A model generated the notes under the pieces. That model saw only the letters and a list, made by a program, of their open reading frames with translations. It made no database searches and was not told the DNA's origin. 64,000 nucleotides of DNA, taken from the NCBI GenBank assembly GCA_947632015.1, contig CANRNP010000001.1, positions 39,046 to 103,045 of the forward strand. Reading direction: 5' to 3'. This DNA comes from an uncultured Clostridia bacterium (GTDB lineage: Bacteria > Bacillota > Clostridia > Christensenellales > Borkfalkiaceae). The translations under genes and the position numbers were made by a program. Below are positions 51,478-54,620 of the stretch, piece by piece; position 1 is the first letter of the stretch, and every line of letters begins with the position of its first letter.

Positions 51478-52803
51478 TCAGGACCCGTTCCTGCCGAAGA
51501 ATTCTTCGTAGACCGCGCGAAGGGTGCGCTCGTAATTTTTATTGTCTACCCCGACGATGATGTTCAACTCGGAAGAGCCCTGGTCGATCATGCGGACGTT
51601 GACGCCGGCGCGGGCGATCGCGTCGAACAATCTTGCGGACGTACCCACGTTTCTCATCATGCCGTGCCCGACGACCGCGATGAGCGCGATGTCGGTGAGC
51701 GTCTTGCATTGATCGGGACGGACTTCCGCTTTGATGTCCGCCTCGATCTTTTCCAGCGTCCCCTCTTTGAGCTCCGTCTCGTCGATGACGAAGGAGATGG
51801 TGTCGATCCCGGAGGGCATGTGCTCGAAGCTGACGTGATATTTTTCCAGAACGGAGAGAATGCGGCGGGCGAAGCCGATCTCACTGTTCATGAGGGATTT
51901 TTCGATGAAGATGACCGCGAAATTCTTCTTCCCCGCGATCCCCGTGACGGGCGACGGCGAAGAGGACGCCTCCGTGGCGGGCACAATGCGGGTGCCTTCG
52001 TCATCGGGGCGGAAAGTGTTTTTGATGAGGATGGGAATGTTCGCTTCCCGCACGGGGAAGATGCTCTCGCTGTGGAGCACGTTCGCCCCCATGTACGAGA
52101 GCTCCCTCAGTTCCCGGTAGGAGAGGCGGTCGATGTGGGCGGGACTGTCTACAATGCGGGGGTCGCATGCAAGAAAACCGCTCACGTCCGTCCAGTTTTC
52201 GTACAGGTCGGCGCCGACCGCCCGCGCGACGATGGCGCCCGAAACGTCGCTCCCGCCGCGGGAAAAGGTGTGCACTTTCCCCCTTTCGTCCGCGCCGTAA
52301 AACCCCGCCACGACGGCGCGCGGCTTGCCGCGGAGCGCCGCCGCCATCAGAGAATAGGTCTTTTCGCAATCCAGCCTGCCGTCCTCGGTAAAGCGCACGG
52401 CGTCGCATGCGTCGACAAAGGGTATGCCGAGGAGCGCCGCCATGATCCGCCCGGAGAGATATTCCCCCCGCGACGCCGTGAACTCCTCGCTCTTCTCCCG
52501 CATGATCGCCCGTTCCGTCTCCGAAAGGATCTCTTCGATCCCGAAGTCGAGCCCGATCTCGCGCACGATGCCGCGGAAGCGCTCCTTGACCGCCGTAAAG
52601 GGCTCGCAGACCCCCTTCTCCGCGACGGCGCGGTAGGTTTCGTACAATTTGTCGGTGACCTTTACGTCCCCTCCGAAGCGCTTGCCGGGCGCGGACGCAA
52701 CGAGGTACCGCCGCGCGGGGTCCGCACGGAAAATTTCGGCGACCCGAAGGATGTTTATGCCGTCCGCCATAGACGTGCCGCCGAATTTGCAAACTTTAAT
52801 CAT
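51478..52803 (-). CDS. lysC: Aspartate kinase
   Basis: VCKFGGTSMADGINI, FSRGGSDVSGAIVARAV, C-terminal ACT domains. Confidence 0.94.
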   Translation of the reverse strand: MIKVCKFGGTSMADGINILRVAEIFRADPARRYLVASAPGKRFGGDVKVTDKLYETYRAVAEKGVCEPFTAVKERFRGIVREIGLDFGIEEILSETERAIMREKSEEFTASRGEYLSGRIMAALLGIPFVDACDAVRFTEDGRLDCEKTYSLMAAALRGKPRAVVAGFYGADERGKVHTFSRGGSDVSGAIVARAVGADLYENWTDVSGFLACDPRIVDSPAHIDRLSYRELRELSYMGANVLHSESIFPVREANIPILIKNTFRPDDEGTRIVPATEASSSPSPVTGIAGKKNFAVIFIEKSLMNSEIGFARRILSVLEKYHVSFEHMPSGIDTISFVIDETELKEGTLEKIEADIKAEVRPDQCKTLTDIALIAVVGHGMMRNVGTSARLFDAIARAGVNVRMIDQGSSELNIIVGVDNKNYERTLRAVYEEFFGRNGS

Positions 52804-53695
52804 AGGATATTTCCCTGCCTTCGAGGCTGCACCTCGCGTCTTGTTCGCTGCCGAGCCGCACGCTCTTTGCGGGAAGGGTGCGCCCCGCCTTCCAAAGCGC
52901 GAGCAATTCCTCTTTCCTGACCGCCTCGCCGCTCCCGCATTCCCGCACGGTGAGGACGGGGTCGCAGAGATTGACGAACTCCGCCGCGGTAAAACGGGCG
53001 GGGTGGTTACGCGCCTCGTGCGCCGAAATGCCCGCTTTGACGCTCTCCCAGTGCATCTTCGCCGCCGCCAGCGTGTGGTTGCCGTCGAGCACGCCGAAGC
53101 AGGGATCGCCGTAGTGCAACAGATCGCGGATCACCTCGCTTGCGATGAATTCGGGGATAAAGGAAGCGGAGAGTTTGCCCGCGGGGGCGGCGATCTCGTA
53201 TAAAAGCTCCAACTCCTCGTTTTCAAGCGCGCGCATGATCTTGTCCCTCTTATCCTTGTAACAGAGCACGGTGTGCGGGAATTCGATGATCGCGCCCGCC
53301 CGCTCCTTTGCCCGCGATCCCACGAGGGAAGGAAGGGTCTGCGTCGTGGGGCGGATCGCGCCTTCGGGGGAAAACGCCTCGATGTCCACCGCGGCGAGGA
53401 TCCCCTTCCGGATCCCGCGGGCGGTGTGCCGCTCGATGAGCAGAAAACCGCGCTCGATCCGTCCTAAATCCCCCCGTTCGAGCACGGCATACATGGCGTC
53501 CCTTATTTTTTTCAGGCGTTCCTCTTCGCCCTCGCCCCGCAAAAAGTCGGGCAGGATGCAATCGCGCGCGGAAAGACCTTCCCCCTTCGCGGAGACCTCC
53601 CACCATTCGGGGGAGCAATCGCACGCGGGCGCGACCCATTCGTCCTCGCACATGCGGGGCACCAGAAACCGCGGGATACGGATACAGTTCCTCAT
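52796..53695 (-). CDS. DUF1015-like protein
   Basis: CFGVLDGNHTLAAAKMHWE motif; operonic with lysC. Confidence 0.75.
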   Translation of the reverse strand: MRNCIRIPRFLVPRMCEDEWVAPACDCSPEWWEVSAKGEGLSARDCILPDFLRGEGEEERLKKIRDAMYAVLERGDLGRIERGFLLIERHTARGIRKGILAAVDIEAFSPEGAIRPTTQTLPSLVGSRAKERAGAIIEFPHTVLCYKDKRDKIMRALENEELELLYEIAAPAGKLSASFIPEFIASEVIRDLLHYGDPCFGVLDGNHTLAAAKMHWESVKAGISAHEARNHPARFTAAEFVNLCDPVLTVRECGSGEAVRKEELLALWKAGRTLPAKSVRLGSEQDARCSLEGREISYD

Positions 53696-53799
53696 ACCGC
53701 GTTGATGATCACGACGACGATGACGGCGAGCGCGAGCGCCGCGAGTTTGAGCGGGATATTTTCGGTAAACGCTTTTTTCAAGTGTTCGAGAAATTTCAT
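53692..53799 (-). CDS. 35-aa membrane microprotein resembling the N-terminal TM of YbbR/CdaR
   Basis: MKFLEHLKKAFTENIPLKLAALALAVIVVVIINAV; ATGA overlaps with both cdaA and the DUF1015 gene. Confidence 0.65.
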   Translation of the reverse strand: MKFLEHLKKAFTENIPLKLAALALAVIVVVIINAV

Positions 53800-54620
53800 A
53801 CCTTCTTGCCCTCCGCGTTGAATTCTTTCCAGTAGTATTCGCGCAAAAACTTTTTCAGCAATTCGGAATCGGCATACCGCGTGATGTCCCCCCGCTTGAC
53901 GATGGAGACGATCCCCGTCTCCTCCGAGACGATGATGGTGGAGACGTCCGCCACTTCGGTGACCCCGATGCCCGCGCGGTGGCGCGTTCCGAAATCTTTG
54001 GGGAAATCCCTCTGCGTGAGAGGCAAAAAGCACCCCGCCGCCTGTATCTTATCGCCGTAAATGATCATGGCGCCGTCGTGGAGGGGGGCTTTGTCGATGA
54101 AGATCCCCTCGATGAGTTGGTTGGAGATGTTCGCCCCTAACTTTACGCCGCTGTCCACGATGTCCTTGGGCAAATTCCCGTTGGAGAGCACGATGAGCGC
54201 GCCCGTATTGTTTTTGGAGAGGTTCTGCACCGCACGCACGATGGAAGAGATGTATTCCTCCGCCCGCGCCGCCACGGCGGACTTCGCCGTCGTTTCGCTC
54301 CGCGCTTCCCCGCCGCGTTTGCCCGTCCAGATGGAGCGCTTGATCTCCTGGCTGAACAAGAGCAGGAAGAACATGGAGAGCACCATGAGGAAGAGCAGAT
54401 ACGCCGTGCTGTTGAGCCGCTCCGACATCATGCAGACGACGCCCACCAAGAGGGAGAGCACGACGTACACGACGATGAGCTGCCGCGCGTTGTTCGCCTT
54501 CAAGGTGCGGAACACGAAATAGATGAGCAGATAGAGAAAGATCCCCTCCGCAAAATAAACCAGCCAGCTCTCGCCGAACTGCATGAACACGTTTTTGATG
54601 TTTTCAAAGACGTTTGCCAT
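53796..54620 (-). CDS. cdaA: Diadenylate cyclase
   Basis: Three N-terminal TM segments; APLHDGAMIIYGDKI (DGA) and GTRHRAGIGVTE (RHR) motifs. Confidence 0.95.
   Translation of the reverse strand: MANVFENIKNVFMQFGESWLVYFAEGIFLYLLIYFVFRTLKANNARQLIVVYVVLSLLVGVVCMMSERLNSTAYLLFLMVLSMFFLLLFSQEIKRSIWTGKRGGEARSETTAKSAVAARAEEYISSIVRAVQNLSKNNTGALIVLSNGNLPKDIVDSGVKLGANISNQLIEGIFIDKAPLHDGAMIIYGDKIQAAGCFLPLTQRDFPKDFGTRHRAGIGVTEVADVSTIIVSEETGIVSIVKRGDITRYADSELLKKFLREYYWKEFNAEGKKV

Follow-up and report, generated by a model that had tools for sequence, protein, structure and literature searches.

The closest described relative of the system considered here is CdaR (YbbR) of Bacillota, whose gene lies directly after cdaA, the gene for the cyclase that makes the second messenger c-di-AMP, and whose product joins an N-in transmembrane (TM) helix to an ectodomain of YbbR repeats (PF07949). 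CdaR binds CdaA through the TM domains of the two proteins (PMC10243994; PMC8573169). In S. aureus, one of the suppressors of a ybbR deletion lies in TM3 of the cyclase (PMC5207132), and in stationary phase a ybbR insertion more than doubles c-di-AMP (PMC11520302). CdaR has been reported both as an activator and as a repressor, and how it controls the cyclase has been described as unclear (PMC8573169; PMC5207132). In streptococci, CdaA and the CdaR membrane helix can also occur in one polypeptide (PMC10243994). At the locus described here, the gene directly after cdaA likewise encodes an N-in TM helix with the shared core N-x-x-L-K-x-x-[SA]-L-x-x-[AS], but the product is without any YbbR repeat and is 35 aa long, against 322-475 aa for CdaR, and in one genus a helix of this type is fused to CdaA.

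The window, by which we mean the whole 64,000-nucleotide stretch of DNA analysed, carries on its minus strand, in this order, cdaA (54620-53796), the microprotein ORF (53799-53692) and a DUF1015 gene (53695-52796), with the following features:

53796..54620, minus strand: cdaA, diadenylate cyclase, 274 aa (PF02457 E = 8e-38; TIGR00159 E = 4e-50)
53810..53814, minus strand: GGAGG, the likely Shine-Dalgarno (SD) sequence of the microprotein, within the 3' end of cdaA (from sequence and genus comparison)
53796..53799, minus strand: ATGA, overlap of the cdaA stop and the microprotein start (from sequence)
53692..53799, minus strand: CdaR-derived microprotein, 35 aa, ATG start (from conservation, purifying selection and homology to the CdaR N-terminus); residues 1-14 form a basic N-terminal lead and residues ~15-34 one TM helix
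53692..53695, minus strand: ATGA, overlap of the microprotein stop and the DUF1015 gene start (from sequence; recurs in most relatives)
52796..53695, minus strand: DUF1015 gene, 299 aa (PF06245 E = 8e-21), a conserved downstream neighbour

The 35 codons encode MKFLEHLKKAFTENIPLKLAALALAVIVVVIINAV, a peptide whose N-in/C-out orientation is predicted from charge distribution only and which no family entry covers in Pfam or NCBIfam searches. The initial annotation had described a 35-aa ORF at this position after cdaA, with ATGA overlaps at both ends, all of which the sequence bears out; its statement that the ORF is in frame with cdaA was mistaken, the ATGA overlap placing the two in different frames. 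The cdaA product has both a DAC domain and an N-terminal TM region, scores 170.5 bits against TIGR00159 (under the 188.8 cut-off), and is the single DAC-domain match in a search of the whole genome (1.69 Mb, 97.5% complete). An intact glmM lies on another contig.

The relatives found through a CdaA query include several Candidatus Gallimonas MAGs, which places the window in this group of uncultured Clostridia of the gut. Comparison within the genus revealed an ORF of 32-40 aa directly after cdaA at 105 of 108 fetched loci, some genomes being counted twice. Its start lies at offset -4 from the cdaA end in 76 of 87 unique copies, and an SD-like motif stands at the right distance in 95% of these 87, the figure for offset control windows being 1-51%. 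Where the ORF is shifted 13-78 nt past cdaA (L011, L052, L061, L069, L076), the SD shifts along with the start codon. Since the SD accompanies the displaced start, the ORF owns its initiation site and, in the absence of expression data, is most likely produced as a separate peptide. The dN/dS ratio of the 35-aa copies is 0.14 in frame and 1.27 and 3.15 in the shifted frames, and F11, K18 and L24 are invariant across 43 distinct copies; a test for a conserved helical face was not significant (p = 0.32). The microprotein ORF is a real, conserved gene under purifying selection at the protein level, and conservation with synonymous bias in relatives, on which the initial annotation had let its reading depend, is strong.

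The relation of the microprotein to CdaR was established by profile searches in both directions. An HMM built only from the short downstream ORFs of the genus (hereafter stubs) and used to search 7,461 ORFs, taken from the window and 112 loci, retrieved other downstream stubs and then the N-termini of full-length CdaRs; the first matches that were neither stub nor CdaR were a pair of CdaA proteins bearing an additional helix, and no truly unrelated ORF appeared before E = 1.8. Conversely, with an HMM built from full-length CdaR N-termini alone and a background of 617 ORFs with a TM-like stretch, 23 stubs preceded the first unrelated ORF (E = 0.079), the window microprotein scoring E = 0.0008. 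Profile-profile alignment by hhalign of the stubs with full-length CdaR of the same order gave a probability of 96.6% (E = 5.6e-10). When a profile of 28 full-length CdaR sequences was run over the whole genome, the sole match at E up to 10 was the microprotein, aligned to CdaR positions 11-38 at E = 0.195, a value weak alone but located exactly where CdaR belongs. The CdaR consensus at the matching place reads N-x-x-L-K-L-x-S-L-x-F-A-x-x-L-W, and its core, [KR]-x-x-[SAV]-L-x-x-[AS], is legible in 27 of 30 full-length CdaRs as well as in stubs. The ORF ends with the helix, and a PF07949 search found no YbbR domain in it or anywhere in the genome. Because the YbbR repeats that define that family were searched for and are absent, the microprotein is CdaR-derived and not a YbbR-domain protein. 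The proposal that it is the N-terminal TM segment of YbbR with all repeats gone is thus supported by the reciprocal profile searches, hhalign, gene position and the state tree described below, and the complete cdaR elsewhere in the genome that could have undermined it was found neither by PF07949 nor by the 28-sequence profile. A search of full CdaR against the PDB returned, besides weak matches, a single isolated YbbR-like domain (E = 0.002); entry 9g69 is a CdaA chain of 292 aa.

The CdaA proteins with an extra helix come from two loci of family f32 that have no downstream stub, and carry the helix at the N-terminus (NAFVRMMKAIFVRDLRFKILAVVIGGLLWL...). A family-wide search found this extension in 14 genomes of a single genus, g83 (L223-L235, L237). 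In the sister genera, most of the loci read have a free stub beginning between 4 nt before and 54 nt after the cdaA end, and a search with the fused g83 protein as query picks up these free stubs themselves (E down to 2e-8). Reading on past cdaA in seven of the fused loci leads straight to the DUF1015 gene, without a free stub in between. The positive-inside rule predicts an N-in/C-out stub and an N-out CdaA, so that each part keeps its orientation when the C-terminus of the stub is joined to the CdaA N-terminus. A gene fusion of this type counts as standard evidence for two parts acting in the same complex. The g83 fusions resemble those of streptococci in uniting CdaA with the CdaR membrane helix, but the streptococcal type carries helix and YbbR ectodomain at the CdaA C-terminus, whereas g83 has the helix alone, at the N-terminus. 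AlphaFold predicted the lead and TM helices of the fusion fairly confidently (pLDDT ~75-91) from an alignment of fused and plain CdaA rows without free stubs, and we claim no interface from it. A structure search with this model gave only DAC-domain structures among the matches listed and nothing on the helix.

Across 151 genomes of the order, YbbR domains were found in 59 and CdaA in 136, and YbbR presence largely tracks family boundaries. Three states occur downstream of cdaA: a full CdaR, a short ORF of 32-75 aa with one helix, or the next gene with nothing in between. The helix-only state occurs in seven families: f1, which contains the window, f9, f18, f19, f20, f29 and most of f32; for f9, f29 and some of f19, where profile scores are weak, the call is based chiefly on gene position and the presence of a TM stretch. 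The stub-less state occurs in f3, f6, f8, f10, f14, f16, f24 and f30. Whole-genome searches confirmed the stubs in nine positive-control genomes, including members of f18 and f19, both outside the profile, at E values from 1.9e-6 to 2.5e-15; the same kind of search for a relocated stub in stub-less genomes gave nothing better than E = 0.027. In a CdaA tree of 59 rows, full CdaR is separated from all other states at 100/100 support, the stub-less families except f30 form one clade (100/98), and the states need four changes where the possible minimum is three. A quicker CdaA tree needs three and places the stub-less clade inside the stub carriers. In the remainder of the class, full CdaR predominates (131 of 157 genomes), and 15 further class cdaA loci (14 of them Pfam-negative) have no stub, showing instead a divergent CdaR, a C-terminal CdaA-CdaR fusion or no recognisable CdaR. 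Because full CdaR is common outside the clade, the simplest history is that CdaR was truncated once, at the base of the clade, after which several families kept the helix and a large sub-clade later lost it; the tree fits a further, separate loss in f30.

Seven genomes of family f28 (G064, G088, G108, G127, G144, G159, G172; 0.8-1.2 Mb, 98-100% complete) gave no CdaA match, and the four that were rechecked have no YbbR either. These genomes may lack CdaA-type c-di-AMP synthesis, a statement based on the CdaA search and not on other DAC genes.

The pattern bears on what the ORF does. A translational coupler or relic, which would only bridge ribosomes from cdaA to the DUF1015 gene while its peptide remained inert, would suit the ATGA overlaps at both ends of most copies. 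Such a role is at odds with the in-frame dN/dS of 0.14 and the invariant residues, with the ORF's own SD and its retention when 13-78 nt away from cdaA, with the fusion of the helix to CdaA in g83, and with the stub-less lineages, which keep cdaA and the DUF1015 gene adjacent anyway; we consider it very unlikely. Still less likely is that the microprotein serves the DUF1015 protein, for example as a membrane anchor, and not CdaA. In most stub loci the DUF1015 gene comes next, yet the helix derives from CdaR, its fusion partner is CdaA rather than DUF1015, in several f19 loci the gene after the stub is aspartate-kinase-like instead (L187, L192, L198), and the DUF1015 gene remains beside cdaA in stub-less families. 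This gene is a downstream neighbour in relatives with or without the microprotein; we treat it as context, and it has not been shown to be a partner.

Short hydrophobic helices easily look alike, and the single-genome CdaR-profile match (E = 0.195) is weak, so that an unrelated small membrane protein might resemble the CdaR helix by convergence. This is highly improbable given that the reciprocal searches separate stubs from the 617 other TM-like ORFs, that the gene position is identical to that of CdaR, and that the shared positions include K, A and N, beyond hydrophobic ones. A split CdaR, with the YbbR ectodomain made from a gene at another place and meeting the helix in trans, is scarcely credible when the 28-sequence profile matches only the microprotein in this genome and PF07949 finds nothing, even though divergent CdaRs from other families in the class escaped Pfam and a very divergent ectodomain is not excluded.

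For the CdaR remnant we propose a model, to which as a whole we assign a probability of about 0.75. The microprotein would be the remnant of a CdaR that has lost its entire extracytoplasmic YbbR region, namely a basic cytoplasmic lead and one TM helix. Translated right after CdaA, it would pack, probably 1:1, against the CdaA TM bundle as a fourth helix, and there may support assembly or set the activity state of the cyclase; the contact, the stoichiometry and the effect on c-di-AMP, whose sign is unknown, are inferred. Sensing of the outside, if there is any, would have been removed from such a helix-only regulator. KdpF and AcrZ exemplify the small single-pass subunits that regulate or assist membrane proteins. 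The microprotein resembles them as a short TM peptide that is encoded beside a larger membrane partner or acts with one, and differs in that its origin can be traced to the truncation of a large regulator.

In the initial annotation the ORF was suggested to be a minimal CdaA-regulating peptide. This is plausible, and the natural CdaA fusions strengthen it, regulation and its sign being inferred; a fixed structural subunit would account for the data equally well or better. The helix-only state has been kept through the radiation of several families, and the helix alone must accordingly be worth keeping. Since it was kept by selection and, in one genus, was fused into the enzyme, the TM helix is probably the part of CdaR that matters. 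We lean, with only slight conviction, to the stronger view that it is the sufficient functional unit of CdaR, a fixed fourth TM helix of the cyclase, without surface reach, that was absorbed into CdaA in g83 to give a four-helix enzyme. The main weakness of the proposal is that some relatives do without the helix altogether: the large stub-less sub-clade and f30 keep CdaA without a stub, so the helix is dispensable somewhere.

A literature search for truncated or TM-only CdaR found no report, and what is new here is a CdaR derivative cut down to the helix that binds CdaA in other bacteria. If the proposal is true, a clade of Clostridia runs c-di-AMP synthesis with a regulator unable to reach the cell surface. 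One order holds full CdaR, the helix only, a helix-cyclase fusion and no CdaR, which separates the job of the helix from that of the sensor and provides, as a natural series, minimal constructs that are ready to use. The case also lets one trace how a large regulator became a microprotein without a Pfam or NCBIfam family.

Several minor features of these loci deserve mention. Four loci of families f56 and f74, from other orders of Clostridia (L255, L257, L260, L268), encode C-terminal CdaA-CdaR fusions that have a TM helix plus one short YbbR-like stretch; streptococci are reported to have fusions of a similar kind. Among the genus loci, L005 and L054 (one sequence seen twice) have no microprotein, cdaA running into ~120-nt repeats through an insertion or an assembly fault, and L099 has a GC-rich palindrome between cdaA and the DUF1015 gene where the microprotein is missing. 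At L097, a 33-aa single-helix ORF follows cdaA with the same start overlap and a quite different sequence (MRSLWKYVVGSLHLVLFAAIVAVFIVTVVNAAV), reflecting either fast divergence or replacement of the microprotein. The DUF1015 protein itself is shortened: it has 299 aa in the window and 295-300 aa in close relatives, whereas copies from the remaining members of the genus have ~380-388 aa.
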